Source: Clostridiales bacterium (GTDB lineage: Bacteria; Bacillota; Clostridia; UBA1381). From it: a stretch of DNA of 37,744 nucleotides. The stretch is taken from contig JAQXZB010000047.1 in NCBI GenBank assembly GCA_029226975.1, forward strand, positions 1 through 37,744. The letters are read 5' to 3'. Under the pieces are notes generated by a model. That model was given only the letters and a program-made list of their open reading frames with translations, had not been told where the DNA came from and searched no databases. A program made the translations under genes and the position numbers. How positions within the stretch are numbered: position 1 is the stretch's first letter; each line of letters begins with the position of its first letter. Below are positions 3,810 through 37,744 of the stretch, piece by piece.

Positions 3810-4427
3810 TCATATCCTAACCTTCATAAGTCTTGTGGTTGAGGAGCGTTCACTCTCGTCAAGCTTCATTGTTATATATTTTATTGTATCCCGGTAATTG
3901 GGTATCATTATATGCTCCAGTGCGTTTACGCGGCGGCGGGTCTTTTCAATCTCAACGGACATAAGCTCGCAGGATTTTTCAACCTCGGCAAGCTTCAACA
4001 AATCCGGCAGAATATCCGCCAGATTTTTCACCGCGGTATCCAGATCGCTGTCGGTATTTTTATAGCCGTAGGAGTATATATCCCCCTCTTTGGACTGCAT
4101 GGTAAGCTCATAGACCGGGATTTCCACGCTCATTACGTTTTGCTTGCCCATTTCAAGCTGTGCCTTTTGTTTTGGCAAAAGCAAAGCGGACATAAGCACC
4201 TCCCGGCGCATAAGCGAGCCGGCGGCGTCAAAGGCGGAATTTGCGCGTCTTAGCTTTTCTTCAACCTTCAGTCTTAAATCCATATTAACCCGCACAAGCT
4301 CTAAAAATCGGCGCATAAGCTCATCGCGCTTATCCTTAAGAAGCTTGTGACCCTTAAGAGCGGTGGCAAGGCTCTTTTTAAGCCTTGTCAGCTCCATTCT
4401 TGTGGGATTTACGTTAAGCAGTGCCAT
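3810..4427 (-). CDS. ntpD: V-type ATPase subunit D (central rotor shaft)
   Basis: A 205-residue, mostly helical protein with the N-terminal signature NPTRMELTRLKKSL and long coiled-coil segments at the N and C ends, as expected for the antiparallel rotor shaft. In V/A-ATPases, D together with subunit F forms the shaft inside the A3B3 head and transmits torque to the membrane ring. It is the last gene of the operon; the ATG lies immediately after the ntpB stop codon. A hairpin terminator follows at 3737. Length is normal for the family. Confidence 0.94.
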   Translation of the reverse strand: MALLNVNPTRMELTRLKKSLATALKGHKLLKDKRDELMRRFLELVRVNMDLRLKVEEKLRRANSAFDAAGSLMRREVLMSALLLPKQKAQLEMGKQNVMSVEIPVYELTMQSKEGDIYSYGYKNTDSDLDTAVKNLADILPDLLKLAEVEKSCELMSVEIEKTRRRVNALEHIMIPNYRDTIKYITMKLDESERSSTTRLMKVRI

Positions 4428-4428
4428 A

Positions 4429-5805
4429 TCAGCTTTCCTTTCCGTAATACTTATCCAGATATTCGTCCTTAATACGTTTAAGCTCCGTACGGGGCAGAAT
4501 CGAGAGCAGCTTCCAGCCTATGGCAAGAGTTTCCTCAATGCTTCTGTCAGTATCGTTGCCCTGGGAAATATATTCCTCCTCAAAGGCATCGGCAAACTTG
4601 GCATAAATTCTGTCCATTTCCGAAAGTGCGGATTCGCCCAAAATTACCATAAGCTCCTTTGCGTCCTTGCCTCTTGCGTAAGCGGAGAAAAGCTGATTCA
4701 TGACATTTGCATGGTCCTCTCTTGTCTTGCCCTTGCCTATTCCCTTATCCTTCAGTCTTGAAAGCGAGGGAAGCACGTCTATGGGCGGTGAGATATTCTT
4801 TCTGTAAAGCTCGCGGCTTAAAATTATCTGTCCCTCGGTTATATAGCCGGTAAGGTCGGGTATCGGATGGGTTTTATCGTCCTCGGGCATGGTGAGAATG
4901 GGTATCATGGTAACGGAGCCGTTTTTGCCCTTTTGTCTGCCGGCTCTTTCATACAAGGTCGCCAGGTCGGTATACATATAGCCCGGATAACCGCGTCTGC
5001 CGGGGACTTCCTTTCTTGCCGCACTGACTTCTCTTAAAGCGTCTGCGTAGTTTGTAATATCCGTCATTATGACAAGAACGTGCATACCCAAATCAAAGGC
5101 AAGGTATTCCGCCGCCGTAAGAGCCATACGGGGCGTTGAAATACGCTCTATTGCCGGGTCGTTTGCAAGGTTGGTAAAGAGCACCGTTCTTTCCAGTGCG
5201 CCGGTGCGTCTGAAATCCTCCTCAAAGAAGCTTGCCTCCTCAAAGGTAATTCCTATTGCGGCAAAGACCACAGCGAAATTCTCGTCCTTGCCAAGCACCT
5301 TTGCCTGGCGGGCAATCTGCGCCGCAAGCTGGGCATGGGGCATACCGGAGCCGGAGAATATGGGCAGCTTCTGTCCTCTTACAAGGGTGTTCATTCCGTC
5401 AATTGCCGAAATTCCGGTCTGAATAAATTCGTCCGGGTAATCCCTTGCAACCGGGTTCATTGCCACGCCGTTTATATCAAGGCGTTTTTCGGGGATTATC
5501 GGGCCGTTTCCGTCAATGGGTCTGCCCATTCCGTCAAACACCCTGCCCAACATTTCCGGCGAAACGCCAAGCTCCATACCGCGGCCGAGAAATCTGACCT
5601 TTGAATTTGAAAGGTTTATACCCGCCGAATTTTCAAAAAGCTGAACCATTGCGTTTTGTCCGTCAATTTCCAAAACGCGGCAGCGGCGTTTTTCGCCGTT
5701 GGCAAGCTCAATTTCGCCCAGTTCGTCATATTTTACGTTCTCAACGCCCTGAATCATCATAAGCGGACCTGCCACCTCGCGGATTGTTCTGTATTCCTTC
5801 GGCAT
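4429..5805 (-). CDS. ntpB: V-type ATPase subunit B (regulatory head subunit)
   Basis: A 458-residue protein homologous to the F-ATPase alpha subunit. The N-terminal beta barrel begins [13 protein letters not shown]. As expected for the non-catalytic subunit, the P-loop position is degenerate ([13 protein letters not shown]) and contains no Walker A lysine. The C-terminal region has the typical [11 protein letters not shown] and [16 protein letters not shown] stretches. Three copies alternate with subunit A in the head. The ATG follows GAGGAGGAG closely after the ntpA stop; translation is probably coupled. Confidence 0.97.
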
Positions 5806-5806
5806 A

Positions 5807-7567
5807 TTACTCCTCCTCTCCCGCTTTCTTTATTTCGTCACGAAGCTGTGCCTTAATAGACGCCGCTTCATTTTCAATTTCATTTTCATGAACATATTTT
5901 ATACGGCCTATGCGCTCTCTTACCGGCAGTGACACAAGCTTATTCACGCCCGCGCCCTTTGAAAGTGCGCTCACGCATTGGTCGTAATACTCCAGTACAA
6001 GCTCCATCATCAGATACTGCTTTTTAAGGGAAGCATAGGTGTCAACCTCATGGAACGCGTCTTGGTGCAGATAGTCCTCCCTTATGCTTCTTGCGGCTTC
6101 AAGCTTTATTCTGTCCCCCGGAGAAAGCGCGTCCATACCAACAAGCTTTACAATCTCGTCAAGCTCCGCTTCCTCCTGCAAAAGCCGCATAATTCTCGAA
6201 CGATCCTTCATCCAGCCTTTGTTTATGTTATCCTCATACCAGTCGCTCATGCCGTTTAAATAGAGCGAATAGCTGTCAAGCCAGTTTATGGCCGGGAAGT
6301 GCCGCTTATAGGCAAGCGAGGAATCAAGCTTCCAGAACACCTTTACAATTCTTAGGGTTGCCTGTGAAACCGGCTCGGAAATATCACCGCCCGGCGGCGA
6401 CACCGCTCCGATTACCGACAGTGCGCCCTCTCTGGGGCTTGTGCCTATGCTCATAACCCGTCCGGCTCTTTCATAAAAGCTTGCAAGACGCGAGCCCAAA
6501 TATGCGGGATAGCCCTCCTCACCGGGCATTTCCTCCAGTCTGCCGGACATTTCTCTTAAGGCCTCCGCCCATCTTGATGTGGAGTCTGCCATAAGCGCAA
6601 CGGAATAGCCCATATCCCTGAAATATTCCGCTATTGTAATTCCCGTATAAATCGACGCTTCTCTTGCCGCAACCGGCATATCGGAGGTGTTTGCGATAAG
6701 CACCGTTCTTTCCATAAGAGTTCTGCCCGTTCTCGGGTCGTGAATTTCGGGGAACTCGTTTAAAACGTCGGTCATTTCGTTTCCTCTCTCACCGCAGCCT
6801 ATATAGACCACAATATCCGCGTCCGCCCATTTTGCAAGCTGATGCTGAACAACGGTCTTGCCGCTTCCGAAGGGTCCCGGCACCGCCGCCACGCCGCCCT
6901 TTGCAATGGGGAACAGCGTATCGATTACCCTTTGACCGGTCACAAGAGGCATATCCGGGGAAAGCTTGTTTTTATAGGGTCTGCCCACTCGCACCGGCCA
7001 TTTCTGCATAAGCGTAAGCTTATAATCGCCGTTTTTGGTTTCAACAGTGCCTATTTCCTCCTCAACGGTGAACTCGCCGCCTTTTATGGATTTAAGCGTT
7101 CCCGAAACATTGGGCGGAACCATGATTTTTTGCACAACCGCCTCGGTTTCGGTGACAGTGCCTATTATATCGCCGCCCTCGACCTTATCCCCGGCCTTTA
7201 AAATCGGCTCAAAGGTCCATTTTTTATCTCTTTTAAGCGAGGGAACCTGAACTCCGCGGTGCAGATTTCCTCCCGCCTTTTTCATAATATCGTCAAGGGG
7301 TCTTTGAATACCGTCATAGATAGAGCCGATAAGACCCGGCCCCAGCTCAACCGATAGCGGCGCGCCGGTGGATACCACCTTTTCGCCCGGTCCCAGGCCT
7401 GCGGTTTCCTCATAGACCTGTATGGATGCCCTGTCACCGTGCATTTCTATAATCTCGCCGATAAGCCCCAGCTCCGACACGCGCACAACGTCAAACATAT
7501 TGGCGTCCATCATGTCCTTGGCAATAACCAAAGGCCCCGACACCTTTTGTATGATACCTTCACTCAT
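5807..7567 (-). CDS. ntpA: V-type ATPase catalytic subunit A
   Basis: A 586-residue catalytic subunit. Walker A GPFGSGKT is at residues 231-238, the catalytic glutamate lies in GCGERGNE (E260), and the Walker B region is VALMADST at about 323-330. The long non-homologous insertion that separates V/A-type A from F-type beta (residues about 110-200) is present. It hydrolyses or makes ATP at the A/B interface. The ATG at 7567 is preceded by AAGAAAGGA; it follows the subunit F gene by 16 bases. Length and motifs are complete. Confidence 0.98.
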
Positions 7568-7583
7568 ATCCCTAAATCCTTTC

Positions 7584-7904
7584 TTAATTATTTCCGAACA
7601 ATATATCGGAGCCTACGGCGCGTTCCACCATTGAGCGCACCTTTCCCGTACCAAAGCCCGAATCTCCGCTTCCCGCCGGCAGCGGAATAACCGCCGGTGT
7701 AAGGCTTGAGGAGTATTGGGCTATGTCATTTTGTATCTTTTTTGCGTAATCCTCGGTTATATATATAATCCCGTAGTCCTCCGCGGCAAGGCGCGAAAGC
7801 GCCGATTTTGCCCCAATCTCGTCCTCTACCGGGAAAATATCTATTCCCACAGCCGCAAATCCGCATATAACGTCGCGGCTGCCTATTATTCCAATCTTAT
7901 ACAT
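7584..7904 (-). CDS. ntpG: V-type ATPase subunit F (rotor; NtpG in E. hirae naming)
   Basis: A 106-residue protein beginning [16 protein letters not shown], typical of the small Rossmann-like F subunit that binds subunit D on the central shaft. I favour the ATG at 7904, which overlaps the stop of the upstream subunit C gene by 8 bases, over an in-frame start three codons earlier; the overlap suggests translational coupling, since no strong ribosome site is seen. In Enterococcus hirae nomenclature this position in the operon is called ntpG; many annotations use atpF. Confidence 0.88.
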
Positions 7905-8859
7905 ACAGCTCACGCAGCCTTTCCGATATTATTTCCTTCGGGATATTATTTTTAAGACCGCTTATAATAATCCTCACCATGCCCGCTTCGTTTTCCTTAG
8001 TGTACAAAAACGCAACAATCGGCTCGATACCGAACGCCCGGTATCTTGCGCCCGCAAGATAGCGCGAGAGCATATAAGCCTTTTGCTTCTCGAACTCGGC
8101 AGGACTGCTCTCCCAGGCTTTTACAAGCTCCGGGTACAATTCGTCAAGATATGCCTTTGCCTCCTCATGTCCCTGCAAAATCGCCTGCACTGCCCGGGGC
8201 TTTGAAATTGAGCCTATGTCCGAAAGCGCTTCCTTTGCCAGTCTTTCGTCAATGCCCGCAGCCGAACCCCTAAGCATTACGCTGCAATTTAGCATATCAC
8301 TCTCCAACTTGGCAAGTCCTTCAAGAAACGGGCTTTTATGCTTCTTGACTTCTCGATACATTACCTCCACAAGCTCTCTGTCAAGATAAACCTCCATAAG
8401 CTGTCCGTCGCCGGTTTTGGCAAGCAGATCAAAGGCATGGGCGGCAATATCCGAAACAAGCTCCGGCAGTGCCGAAAAGTTTCCGTTTCGTACAGCGTCT
8501 GCCATTTGCCGCGGCTCTATCGTGCATGGGCGGAGCATCAGCGTTTCATAATCCACTCCGCCAAACATTGCCTTTATTATGCTCTTTAAATTCTGAAAAT
8601 CATTTTTATAGAGCAGAATATCCACCGGCGCGCCCTTGGGGCAGGCACCTCTGACCTCGCTCCAGCTTTTTTCAAGCTCCGCGCATATCATTTCCTCGGC
8701 GTCCTTTTTGCCATCTCCGTAGCCTGTCTGCTCCAAAATTCTCAGGGCTTCTTCCGCGTCTTGGGCATTTTTCAGGCTGTCGATATCCGAAGGCGAAAGC
8801 ATTTTATTTTCAAGCGTGCGCACATACGCAACAGCGAAGGCATAATCTGTTTCCCTCAT
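7897..8859 (-). CDS. ntpC: V-type ATPase subunit C (ring adaptor, d subunit)
   Basis: A 320-residue all-helical protein beginning ETDYAFAVAYVRTLENKML. It matches subunit C of V/A-ATPases in length, helical content, conserved YR/RxR-type patches and operon position. The family forms the funnel socket between the central shaft and the membrane ring. The start ATG follows GGAGTGAG, 5 bases after the ntpE stop. The 3' end overlaps the subunit F gene. Confidence 0.93.
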   Translation of the reverse strand: MRETDYAFAVAYVRTLENKMLSPSDIDSLKNAQDAEEALRILEQTGYGDGKKDAEEMICAELEKSWSEVRGACPKGAPVDILLYKNDFQNLKSIIKAMFGGVDYETLMLRPCTIEPRQMADAVRNGNFSALPELVSDIAAHAFDLLAKTGDGQLMEVYLDRELVEVMYREVKKHKSPFLEGLAKLESDMLNCSVMLRGSAAGIDERLAKEALSDIGSISKPRAVQAILQGHEEAKAYLDELYPELVKAWESSPAEFEKQKAYMLSRYLAGARYRAFGIEPIVAFLYTKENEAGMVRIIISGLKNNIPKEIISERLRELYV

Positions 8860-8863
8860 AGGC

Positions 8864-9451
8864 TCACTCCTTCAAAAAGGCATTGAGCATATCGCAAAGC
8901 TCGTCATGCCTGAACTCGATAATATCCTCTATCGCAAAATTCTCCTCGATGCGGTTTTTTCTTATTATAAATCCGCCGCTTATGGAAGCGTTTTCCTCGG
9001 CAAGGCTCAGCTTTAACCCACAAGCCGCGCTTTCACATTCACTGAGGAAGTCCTCCGGCATACGTGCCTTGTCGCGGCTGTTTAATATCAGCTCACACTC
9101 GCCCTTTGCCCCCGATGAGGTTATAAGCTTCTTTAAAGCCGCAAAATAATCCTTATCGCTCATGGCAAGAATACTTTCGCCGCTTTTTTTGATTATTTCC
9201 TCAATAACCTCCATGCGCACACGCATACGCTGCTGCGCGGCTCTTTGTCTGTCTGCCGCCTCGGCACGCTCGGCTGTGAGCTGTGCTTCCCTTGCGCGCT
9301 TTTCCTCGTATTTCTTCTGCTCGGCGCGCATTTTTTGACGTTCGGCTTCAAGCCTTTCTTTGGCCTTTTTTTGGGCTGCGTCCTCTGCCGCCTTCGCCTC
9401 GCGTCTTGCATCGTCAAGGATTTTTGCCGTTATTGCTTCAATACCACCCAT
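8864..9451 (-). CDS. ntpE: V-type ATPase subunit E (peripheral stalk)
   Basis: A 195-residue protein. Residues 1-100 are a charged coiled coil rich in Ala, Glu, Lys and Arg; the C-terminal globular part has the ENFAIEDIIEFRH segment that contacts the top of the A/B head in this family. With the small G/H-type subunit encoded at 11926-12243 it forms the heterodimeric stator stalk. The ATG at 9451 follows an AAGGGGGGA ribosome site. Confidence 0.93.
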   Translation of the reverse strand: MGGIEAITAKILDDARREAKAAEDAAQKKAKERLEAERQKMRAEQKKYEEKRAREAQLTAERAEAADRQRAAQQRMRVRMEVIEEIIKKSGESILAMSDKDYFAALKKLITSSGAKGECELILNSRDKARMPEDFLSECESAACGLKLSLAEENASISGGFIIRKNRIEENFAIEDIIEFRHDELCDMLNAFLKE

Positions 9452-9463
9452 AGCAATCCCCCC

Positions 9464-11919
<2,456 letters not shown>

Positions 11920-33412: not shown

Positions 33413-33445
33413 AAAAAGTCGAGGATTTTCACCCTCGACTTTTTT
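33413..33445. terminator. Bidirectional terminator
   Basis: A 12-bp perfect stem (33413-33424 with 33433-33444) ending in A and T runs, so it can act on both strands. It ends the diguanylate cyclase unit and would also stop minus-strand transcription coming from the island. Confidence 0.9.
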
Positions 33446-33684: not shown

Positions 33685-36222
33685 TTATACCATAAATTCT
33701 ACTTGAACTTTTATCCAATACGGTAATTCATCAAAATGAGACTGTATAACTTCACTTACATCATTTTCTATATCTGCATCACTCTTTTTTTCTTCCTTAT
33801 AATCTTCAAAAAATTTACTATAAAGGTAAAACGCACATTCTCTTGGCACTCCTACTCCTATTAAATATCTTGTCACTTGTCTATAAGCACCAGATTGCAT
33901 AGAAGGCACAAATAGGCTCTTATCATTCTTAATATCAAAGATAGGCTTTATTAAAAGAGGAACATTATATGAAACTATATTTTGTAATATTCTTATAGTA
34001 TCCTCAATTTGATCTGAAAAGTCATCTTCTCGTGTATAGCGTTTTTTCTCAAGTATTTCCGCTAATGGTGTTTCCTTTGCCCACAACATACACAAATCAC
34101 ATAACAATCCTCTATTGTTTCCCATTTGCAATGGTTTAGGAATATATTTTTCATACATTATATTTGTTTTATCATTATCTCGCAGAAATTTGAGCATTCT
34201 ATCTAACTTTGTCTTTGCGCCACGTTCTAATGGGTGTGTCGGTACTTCTTCGGGATAGTTTTTAAATATTATATCTAACACAAACGGATCCCAATATCTG
34301 TTTTTATAACATATTTCTTTAGGTATAGACAATTCTGAAAGCTGATAAATTATGGCAGCTACCTGTTCTTTTGACAGTTGTATTCCAACATTGTTCATTC
34401 TTGTAAGAGCATTTTCTCCATACCTAAGTACCGATTGCCGAATATACGATACTAAATCTCCATATCCAAGCATTTCATTATTCAACGGAGTATCTGTAAG
34501 AATTACATTTTCAATATCGCCTTTATATTTATCGAATCTTTCTCCATAACCAGTTGGTAGTTCTTTTGTCGCTTCATCAAACAATGTCATCTGTTCATAT
34601 CCATCAGTATTTGCAAAAGAAGATTCGTCCAAGACAAATGTACGTCCGATAAAATCTTTAAGTAATCTTCCTGCTCTACCTCTCAGATTAGCCATCTCAT
34701 AATTTGAAAGTTCTGCAGCTTCTTTGTTTTTGCTCAAATATAAATGTGGATTACGAATTATAATGTTTTGAGTAGGCAAATTCACCCCTTGTAGTAGTGT
34801 TGTTGTACACGCAATATTGCTTATCCATTTATTGTGTATTGCAACTTCCAAAGTCTTTCTAACATGATCCGGCAATTTGCCGTGATGATATGCAATACCC
34901 TTATTCAATGTACTGCACATAGAGTAGTTTGAATGTACAGTCGTTCTATAATACTCAATCAATTCATTGATTTCTGCAATGTCTGTTTCTTCGCCATCTA
35001 GGTTTATAGCTATTTTCCTAGCAGTCTGAGGTGTAGGCGAAAAAATAATATTTTGTTGACCTTTTAATCCACAAGCTATTTTATTTAAATATTGCAAATA
35101 ATCTTCATCATATCTTGACTTTCCATATCCCTTAATGAACGAAGGGTCTGTAATTTCCTTTATTGCAGGTTCCATTGTCAATCCACAATACTGTTTTATA
35201 TAATAACTATTTTTATTTTCATATACGCTATATGTTAAATTTAATACTGGACTATCGATAGAAGTAATATTTTTAGTTTCTTCTCCAAAAATACTTTCGC
35301 CAGTTTGATCTATAGCGTCGATGCGAGGACCAGAAATAATGATTTGATTTACATTATCTTTATATCTAAACTCATTTAACGCATCAAATAAAACTTTGGC
35401 TCTTTCGTCATTATCCTCTTTTATGCGTTCTATATTTTGAATCTCATCAGCGACTAAAATCAAGTCATTATTAAACTTGTTATTTGCATCACTTAGCGCC
35501 GAAATGGCTTTTTCTTGTGTTAAAACAAAAACACAATTTTCATCATCCTTGGTATTATCGTAAAATGAATTTATGATTTTGCAATTATTAATGTTCAATA
35601 TCTTCATCATTTTTGCAAAGTCCTCAGATACTTGATTTAATAAGCTTAAAGTTGGTACAATATATATAATATCAAACTTTGTTTTACATAACTTGTCCAA
35701 TAGTTTTAACAATATTACAAATGATTTTCCAGCCGATGTAGGGGCTGATATACCTATTATTTTCTCAGTGTCCATGCTATTCCATATATTTATTTGAAAA
35801 TCTGTTAGCAGAAATTTTTTATCTTGCACAATTATACTGTTGCGTTCTTGGTTTAATGTTGCCAGTAGTTGTTCTATAATGCTATCTAAACTTGTAAAAG
35901 TGCAATTATTCTTATCAAAATTTTCGTCAGCTATAACGGCAGATGTAGGATAGCCTATTCTAGATAAAAACTTAACAATAATTTTTCTTAAATTAAATTT
36001 TTCACGATTAGCATATTCCCACATCAGCGCAATTACAGTTATGACATAGTTGACCGAAGGGGAATTTTTCATTGTTGTTTCATAATCTAAACATCTAATA
36101 GTATTAAATATAAGTTCATCCGGAACCTCGATAGTCTCTCGCACAAATGCTAATTTATTTGCTATGTAGGCAAAATCTATCGACAACCACTTATTTAGAA
36201 CATTTTCTTTTAAGTGCTCCAT
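33685..36222 (-). CDS. hamB: Hachiman defence helicase HamB
   Basis: An 845-residue superfamily 2 helicase. A Q-motif-like segment (LLTDFQINIW, Q143) precedes Walker A APTSAGKS (160-167); the Walker B box is DEIQ (259-262), and motif VI is LRGRAGR near residue 510. An N-terminal 130-residue helical extension and a 300-residue C-terminal region surround the core. In Hachiman anti-phage systems HamB is the DNA-sensing helicase that holds the HamA nuclease inactive until damage or phage DNA is met. The ATG follows AAGGAG, 13 bases after the hamA stop. AT-rich compared with the genes to the left, suggesting transfer. Confidence 0.85.
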   Translation of the reverse strand: MEHLKENVLNKWLSIDFAYIANKLAFVRETIEVPDELIFNTIRCLDYETTMKNSPSVNYVITVIALMWEYANREKFNLRKIIVKFLSRIGYPTSAVIADENFDKNNCTFTSLDSIIEQLLATLNQERNSIIVQDKKFLLTDFQINIWNSMDTEKIIGISAPTSAGKSFVILLKLLDKLCKTKFDIIYIVPTLSLLNQVSEDFAKMMKILNINNCKIINSFYDNTKDDENCVFVLTQEKAISALSDANNKFNNDLILVADEIQNIERIKEDNDERAKVLFDALNEFRYKDNVNQIIISGPRIDAIDQTGESIFGEETKNITSIDSPVLNLTYSVYENKNSYYIKQYCGLTMEPAIKEITDPSFIKGYGKSRYDEDYLQYLNKIACGLKGQQNIIFSPTPQTARKIAINLDGEETDIAEINELIEYYRTTVHSNYSMCSTLNKGIAYHHGKLPDHVRKTLEVAIHNKWISNIACTTTLLQGVNLPTQNIIIRNPHLYLSKNKEAAELSNYEMANLRGRAGRLLKDFIGRTFVLDESSFANTDGYEQMTLFDEATKELPTGYGERFDKYKGDIENVILTDTPLNNEMLGYGDLVSYIRQSVLRYGENALTRMNNVGIQLSKEQVAAIIYQLSELSIPKEICYKNRYWDPFVLDIIFKNYPEEVPTHPLERGAKTKLDRMLKFLRDNDKTNIMYEKYIPKPLQMGNNRGLLCDLCMLWAKETPLAEILEKKRYTREDDFSDQIEDTIRILQNIVSYNVPLLIKPIFDIKNDKSLFVPSMQSGAYRQVTRYLIGVGVPRECAFYLYSKFFEDYKEEKKSDADIENDVSEVIQSHFDELPYWIKVQVEFMV

Positions 36223-36235
36223 ACCCTACTCCTTA

Positions 36236-37153
36236 CTACAACTTGTTTTGGAAATCACGTACTAACTCCTCTAATTTCCATACAGGAAAAACAATATATG
36301 TGATTCTATTCAATATGGCATTATGCTCTATATCAATTTTTGTATTATCAAAATTCTCGTATCGTTTTTTTATAATTTCTTCTATTTGATTACGAATATC
36401 AGATTTATTTGTTATATTTAATTTAGTAGTTTCATCATAAACAATTATGCTAACTAAATGAATTTCAACATCATCTAATGTATTATTTAAATATGCTTCT
36501 GCTATCTCATTCATATCTTTGTCTAAGAAATCCTCGTGTACATATAAACTCAATTCTTCCTTGTGGTTTTTATATGTTGTTAATATGCTGTTGACGGCAT
36601 TTTCAAAAGCTTCATTAAATTTATATTTGCTAGTATATGTTTTTGCTTCCCCAAGTATAATTAATGGTTTACAATTTTCGTATTTAAAATGAATCGCATC
36701 TGCACCAAATCTTTCATGATGAGCCGATGTAGTTATTTTCATTTTTCTAAGTAACGGAACTGCCTTTTGACATCTTTGTATAAAATGAAATAATAGCAAT
36801 TCCCCTAACTGACCTTGCATCAATAGTTCTTCGACTGTGTGGTTTCCTCTAAACTTTTCATGTGCCTTTCTTTGAACTTCAGCATGAGCGGCAGCTTCAC
36901 TTCTGCCCATTTTCATAGCAGCCTCTCGAAGCTCTTTGTATTTATCTGAACTATATACCCAATCAACAATTGAATTATATAATTCAGTTAGAAATTCATT
37001 TCTTAATTCACTTATATCTTGATAATCAATACTTGCACCATAATGACTGTTCTTATTGGGTACTATGTTAAATTTTTGCTGTATAATATAAATATTATTA
37101 AACAATGCATCGTTTGGGGTTAATCTTGCATTAATATCATTTTCATTCAACAC
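36236..37153 (-). CDS. hamA: Hachiman defence nuclease HamA (DUF1837)
   Basis: About 305 residues. It has the PD-(D/E)xK nuclease core expected for HamA: E118 (GQLGE), D152 (FGADAIHF) and the ExK pair E169-x-K171 (LGEAKTY), numbered from the start used here. HamA forms a complex with HamB and degrades DNA once released, stopping phage growth. Start is uncertain: GTG at 37153 has AGAGGTGG at good spacing, GTG at 37159 abuts that site and TTG at 37150 is also possible. All overlap or touch the end of the restriction gene (stop at 37143), implying translational coupling. AT-rich. Confidence 0.83.
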   Translation of the reverse strand: MLNENDINARLTPNDALFNNIYIIQQKFNIVPNKNSHYGASIDYQDISELRNEFLTELYNSIVDWVYSSDKYKELREAAMKMGRSEAAAHAEVQRKAHEKFRGNHTVEELLMQGQLGELLLFHFIQRCQKAVPLLRKMKITTSAHHERFGADAIHFKYENCKPLIILGEAKTYTSKYKFNEAFENAVNSILTTYKNHKEELSLYVHEDFLDKDMNEIAEAYLNNTLDDVEIHLVSIIVYDETTKLNITNKSDIRNQIEEIIKKRYENFDNTKIDIEHNAILNRITYIVFPVWKLEELVRDFQNKL

Positions 37154-37744
37154 ATTCACCCACCTCTATAATTTCATTATTTATACATATCTCATACCAC
37201 TCATGCGGTTTTAATTCCGACTTGTACGCCTCATCGAACACACCATACAAATCTTTGTATTTTATATTTTTTGATATGATGCTTTTTAATTCGCTTGTTT
37301 GCAGAGGTATTATCTTCATACCATCAACGAATTTTTCGTAGTCATTCGGATCATAATACGGCATATTCTTTCTACCTCTAAAATCCGCAATGACATTTAT
37401 ATTCAAGTAATTTGTCGCAAATACACAGTATGAATTCATATTGCCTGTCCTTATGAGATGCTGTCCCAAATGTCTTGAAACAGGCTCCATTTCCATACGG
37501 CGTTGGTTTGTACCGTCTGCAAGCGTTGCTTCAAGCAGCAGCGTATGTTCGGGATAATATTCTGTACTTTCATACTCGTAAACGATATCAGCTTCACCGC
37601 CTGCTGCATGTGTTTTAGGTAACAAATCAGCGTCGAGCGACAGTTTCATATAATCGAGAATTTTGCCTTTTCTTTCACTTGCCTTATACCACAGAATACC
37701 GAGCACATATTCAAAGATTGTAGGTATATCTGCGTTATCTGTTA
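37143..37744 (-). CDS. AlwI-family type II restriction endonuclease (5' end outside window)
   Basis: The frame is open to the window edge, so the N-terminal part lies beyond 37744; about 200 C-terminal residues are seen. The segments PTIFEYVLG, LDADLLPKTHAAGGEADIVY, LLLEATLADGTNQRRMEMEP and VSRHLGQH are those of AlwI-type enzymes, which belong to the PD-(D/E)xK fold (D of GGEADIVY, E of LLEATLA). AlwI recognises GGATC and relatives recognise similar pentamers; the site of this protein cannot be told from sequence. The cognate methyltransferase should be upstream, outside the window. The gene overlaps hamA by about ten bases, so the restriction and Hachiman genes share a transcript. Confidence 0.78.
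   Translation of the reverse strand, partial: TDNADIPTIFEYVLGILWYKASERKGKILDYMKLSLDADLLPKTHAAGGEADIVYEYESTEYYPEHTLLLEATLADGTNQRRMEMEPVSRHLGQHLIRTGNMNSYCVFATNYLNINVIADFRGRKNMPYYDPNDYEKFVDGMKIIPLQTSELKSIISKNIKYKDLYGVFDEAYKSELKPHEWYEICINNEIIEVGECVE

Follow-up and report, generated by a model that had tools for sequence, protein, structure and literature searches.

Organization of the locus

The window analysed here, a stretch of 37,744 nt from a Clostridiales bacterium (JAQXZB010000047.1), is one whole contig of a 2.8-Mb genome assembled in 123 contigs. Its last 4 kb carry, on the minus strand and in this order, the end of an AlwI-family type II restriction endonuclease gene (R), hamA and hamB. 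R is represented by its C-terminal third, a 199-aa frame (37143-37742) truncated by the contig end at 37744, the 5′ part of the gene lying beyond it. hamA (36236-37159), encoding the Hachiman nuclease effector, overlaps the end of R (37143-37159), and hamB (33685-36222), encoding the SF2 helicase sensor, follows after 13 nt. These coordinates agree with the original prediction of an AlwI-type frame overlapping hamA, itself 13 bases from hamB, all on the minus strand. The region was also said to be AT-rich, as confirmed by a GC content of 37.5% for the AlwI part, 29.2% for hamA and 31.2% for hamB, compared to 46.5% for bases 1-32000.

Downstream of hamB, a strong hairpin with a T run (33418-33444; fold -19.9 kcal/mol, z -5.5) is a probable shared terminator. 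It is located between hamB and a convergent GGDEF gene and is bidirectional. The consensus scanner did not list it, an omission probably explained by the A-T pairs that lengthen its stem.

hamA and hamB form a type I Hachiman system

HamA matches the Pfam HamA family (PF08878, DUF1837; 5.8e-39) and the PADLOC model PDLC00157 (395 bits), and HamB matches PDLC00177 across its full length (1066 bits) as well as the DEAD family (1.4e-13). The HamA nuclease motif D-GExK is present (D154...GE171-A-K173) and invariant in four relatives, and motifs I, II and VI of SF2 helicases are intact in HamB (AGKS 164, DEIQ 259 and RGRAGR 514). As judged by sequence, hamA and hamB are a type I Hachiman in its ordinary two-gene form, sharing with it both genes, their order and spacing, the nuclease motif and the helicase motifs. 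The HMM searches thus uphold the Hachiman identity initially proposed. What distinguishes the window from type I systems is that its hamA is preceded and overlapped by a restriction endonuclease gene.

An extra nuclease recruited upstream of hamA has been described in the nuclease-protease Hachiman HamMAB, where HamM is an MBL-fold pro-nuclease and a protease is fused to an inactive HamA (PMC12799240). HamMAB therefore resembles the window in having an additional nuclease gene directly upstream of hamA. In the window, by contrast, it is a restriction enzyme that is encoded upstream, and HamA is unfused with its motif intact. A Pfam scan of the three window genes revealed neither an MBL-fold nuclease nor a HamA-fused protease, and identity with HamMAB was rejected on this basis.

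Close HamA relatives were not found in the same genus and order beyond one weak match. Phages yielded no HamA, and viral contigs no close member of the window subfamily. No solved HamA structure was retrieved at E 0.01 in a profile search. The best PDB sequence match of HamB, covering the helicase domain only, is 9wh1, an 853-aa chain titled DNA polymerase theta, which may be a bacterial defence helicase under a misleading title. In another locus (L041:6471-8026), a close hamA relative is directly followed by a hamB that begins at residue 627, keeping its C-terminal part only. The helicase region is absent, whether truly deleted or lost in assembly, which would leave this HamA without its sensor.

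The AlwI fragment and its upstream cassette

The AlwI frame matches positions 297-441 of the 441 positions of RE_AlwI (PF09491, 9.6e-41), so that the identity proposed for it was recovered in the HMM search for the C-terminal third only. With such E-values, chance matches are ruled out for RE_AlwI as for HamA and HamB. The fragment is 84% identical to R of locus L027 and 90% identical to R of locus L036. It aligns with the C-terminal nuclease domain of N.BspD6I (2EWF), and this alignment places D, E and E (in GEAD, LLEAT and RMEME) on acidic residues of that domain, which we take to be those of the active site. AlwI-type restriction-modification (RM) systems cut unmethylated DNA, and AlwI leaves 1-nt 5′ overhangs.

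Three full-length relatives in viral contigs (84, 80 and 71% identity across the fragment) each have two Dam-family methyltransferase genes and R in a compact run. Such an M1-M2-R cassette is seen around the full-length relatives L027, L028 and L029 and in several genome loci, and most close whole-genome relatives are alike. Two Dam-family methyltransferases were seen in the close AlwI relatives examined, with the exception of L036, in which M1 was undetected. The window product thus shares the C-terminal nuclease domain and catalytic acidic residues of AlwI-type type IIS enzymes. It differs from its relatives by a tail of about 10 residues at the C-terminus, reading into the hamA leader, and its contig carries neither the methyltransferase genes found upstream in those relatives nor the N-terminus of R.

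By analogy, the missing upstream part would comprise M1, M2 and the N-terminus of R. Other pieces of R (PF09491) and an M1 homologue were sought in the window's own assembly without a convincing match, the simplest explanation being that the contig is interrupted within R. The AlwI cassette might nevertheless be incomplete in the cell, R being partly visible with M1 and its other parts unfound.

Overlap and junction between R and hamA

The AlwI stop lies at 37143 and hamA could start at GTG 37159, GTG 37153 or TTG 37150, giving an overlap of 17, 11 or 8 nt, respectively. A Shine-Dalgarno-like GAGGTG (37166-37161) lies 7 nt ahead of GTG 37153, the best-suited spacing among the three candidates; this codon is the most likely start. 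In blastn comparisons of the window with L036 and L041, DNA similarity to the closest AlwI gene (that of L036) extends to about 37192, and that to related hamA genes sets in at about 37150. The junction between the modules therefore lies within 37150-37192, similarity to each stopping at most 42 nt from the other. The additional AlwI C-terminal residues are probably encoded by a former hamA leader.

No terminator-like site was found on the minus strand between AlwI and hamA. A consensus scan returned 22 promoter-like hits against 26.4 in shuffled sequences, showing no excess, with weak minus-strand sites inside R at 37582-37554 and 37382-37353. A hamA promoter within R may escape such consensus scans. 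R, hamA and hamB are therefore likely to form one operon. The single transcript of the original prediction is retained as the likeliest arrangement, together with the gene identities and the overlap.

The nearest HamAB relatives (L012, L041 and L042) are without AlwI and the nearest AlwI relatives (L036, at 90% identity, and L098) are without Hachiman. This implies that the junction is recent and that the two modules move separately. Their base composition also differs, the AlwI part having 37.5% GC compared to 29-31% for hamA and hamB. At other loci, HamAB relatives are preceded by Kiwa, a flavin reductase-like gene or an AlbA gene. In L012, hamA begins 14 nt past the Kiwa gene kwaB, which is downstream of an HpaII RM system. 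This locus (L012:1354-10535) is a same-strand defence run composed of a Vsr-methyltransferase fusion, an HpaII-type R, a second C5 methyltransferase, a methyl-directed R, kwaA, kwaB, hamA and hamB, with kwaB split into two frames.

Genes located 3′ of AlwI endonucleases

We compared the 16 close AlwI loci, including the window, with enough sequence past R, and scored as tight any co-directional gene within 35 nt. Such a neighbour was present in 9 loci and none was that close in the other 7. Besides Hachiman (two loci, one of them the window), the tight cargo was an unknown gene followed by McrBC, a run from Panacea to SIR2, an HTH-peptidase with PIN, a protein kinase, GmrSD, a gene with an ExoX-like end and a response regulator. 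Leaving the window aside, one cassette in 15 carries a Hachiman (of another subfamily), 7 carry other tight genes and 7 carry none.

Tight 3′ neighbours (8/15 without the window) were compared with those of other genes in the same loci (49/163, about 30%; P ~0.05-0.06) and with the 5′ side (about 2/15; P ~0.025). Given small related samples and a high co-directional baseline, both P values are only suggestive of an enrichment behind AlwI. The pattern is consistent with a cassette that can receive various defence genes at its 3′ end. Among seven plasmid Hachimans sampled, none had a restriction gene annotated directly upstream of hamA. In the McrBC case (L029:6567-13495), AlwI R is followed after 17 nt by a 325-aa protein without family match, then by an McrB-like AAA protein and McrC; the 325-aa protein is possibly a third component.

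A second AlwI-Hachiman operon

An AlwI alignment search identified a viral contig (L053) carrying a complete M1-M2-R-hamA-hamB operon (3987-11084). Successive gaps are -16, +11, -4 and +9 nt, R and hamA overlapping by 4 nt. A survey of relatives for the AlwI-hamA overlap, suggested along with the original prediction, thus revealed it outside the window. The L053 HamA best matches PDLC00150 (374 bits) and its HamB (721 aa) PDLC00180, compared to PDLC00157 and PDLC00177 for the window; the two HamA are 21% identical across 145 residues. A tree built from 20 close R proteins separates the two R associated with Hachiman into distinct groups, both supported (97/91 and 100/99), and 3% of the bootstrap trees unite them. 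Since both HamAB subfamilies and R clades differ, the AlwI-Hachiman order arose at least twice; a single ancestral AlwI-Hachiman operon is ruled out on the same grounds. The L053 operon adjoins a relaxase-like gene, identified by eye only. It is the best template for experiments.

Stacked cassettes or functional partners

The most probable reading is that RM and Hachiman, separately inherited and each complete, have been joined by modular stacking, Hachiman becoming a translationally coupled second-line cargo of the RM operon. It builds on what was observed directly: the gene identities, the intact motifs, the overlap, the position of the junction and the second, independent case of the same order. 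It further supposes M1-M2 and the N-terminus of R upstream, a shared transcript, coupling and a second-line role. The AlwI-type cassette (M1, M2, R) would guard its own DNA by adenine methylation and cut unmodified incoming DNA. Transcription from the RM promoter would read through into hamA and hamB, directly behind R, and the translation of hamA would be coupled to termination on R. HamAB would then form a second line of defence independent of restriction: HamB would sense damaged or abnormal DNA and release the HamA nuclease, and the infected cell would be killed once restriction has failed or damage has built up. Abortive, damage-activated HamAB is established, and other HamAB systems are known to degrade DNA upon damage and to protect from phages (PMC12278908).

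The overlap could alternatively reflect a functional pairing, in which AlwI cuts phage DNA and HamB is loaded on the resulting ends once these are processed to 3′ single-stranded DNA, thereby triggering HamA; restriction would be the sensor that arms abortive infection. HamAB is indeed activated by DNA damage, including break-causing agents, and HamB unwinds blunt and 3′-tailed ends (PMC12278908). Unrelated HamAB lineages have also acquired the R-hamA overlap on at least two occasions. According to the main text of a report on Streptococcus thermophilus, transfer of a native 7.2-kb island carrying both Hachiman and a type II RM system into another strain gave far better protection than plasmid-borne Hachiman alone, the effect of RM alone not being separated (PMC12322248). 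However, one Hachiman in 15 other readable loci is about what is expected from its genome frequency of 3.4% (PMC11514479), with P ~0.24 for at least one in eight tight cargoes, and the slot behind R holds other kinds of cargo too. Moreover, HamB prefers long 3′ overhangs (PMC12278908), whereas those of AlwI are 5′ and 1 nt long. Restriction would also bring no benefit if each successful cut led to suicide. We consider this pairing unlikely, and restriction ends directly feeding HamB are possible but unsupported. The possible functional pairing of the original prediction is not supported as a dedicated one from either side: the single other Hachiman behind AlwI is of a different subfamily, the remaining loci having other cargo or none, and HamAB relatives sit behind Kiwa, flavin reductase-like or AlbA genes. 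A combined version is more doubtful still. The 3′ end of AlwI RM operons would be a preferred docking site for exchangeable second-line defences, and Hachiman would be recruited repeatedly as restriction products help trigger HamB, forming a restrict-then-abort unit.

Conversely, Hachiman may have come to lie next to R by chance within a defence island, hamA using its own promoter inside R and the proximity having no regulatory or functional meaning. The weak promoter-like sites within R would allow this, as would the roughly 30% of other genes in these loci with an equally close co-directional neighbour. A start overlapping inside R leaves no intergenic space, though, promoter-like hits are not above shuffles and the overlap recurs in L053, which makes pure chance improbable. 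Least probable of all is that AlwI is a broken remnant or the contig end an assembly artefact, hamAB alone being functional. Although the contig holds just 199 aa of R and neither a further piece nor M1 was found in the genome, the frame is uninterrupted, keeps its catalytic residues and is strongly conserved (90% identity with L036), and it continues up to the contig edge, as expected of a gene cut there.

Relation to known defence islands

Stacking of RM and Hachiman modules has a precedent, since Hachiman and a type II RM system are already known from one island of S. thermophilus (PMC12322248), where the neighbouring systems were transferred and tested as a unit. The main text of that study names no RM enzyme and reports no gene overlap, and no description of an AlwI-Hachiman overlap was found in the literature searched. 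If the modules are merely stacked, the locus is one more example of defence-island modularity. If RM operons carry exchangeable abortive cargo on the same message, restriction and suicide would share expression control and spread as a unit, an idea testable through the complete L053 operon.
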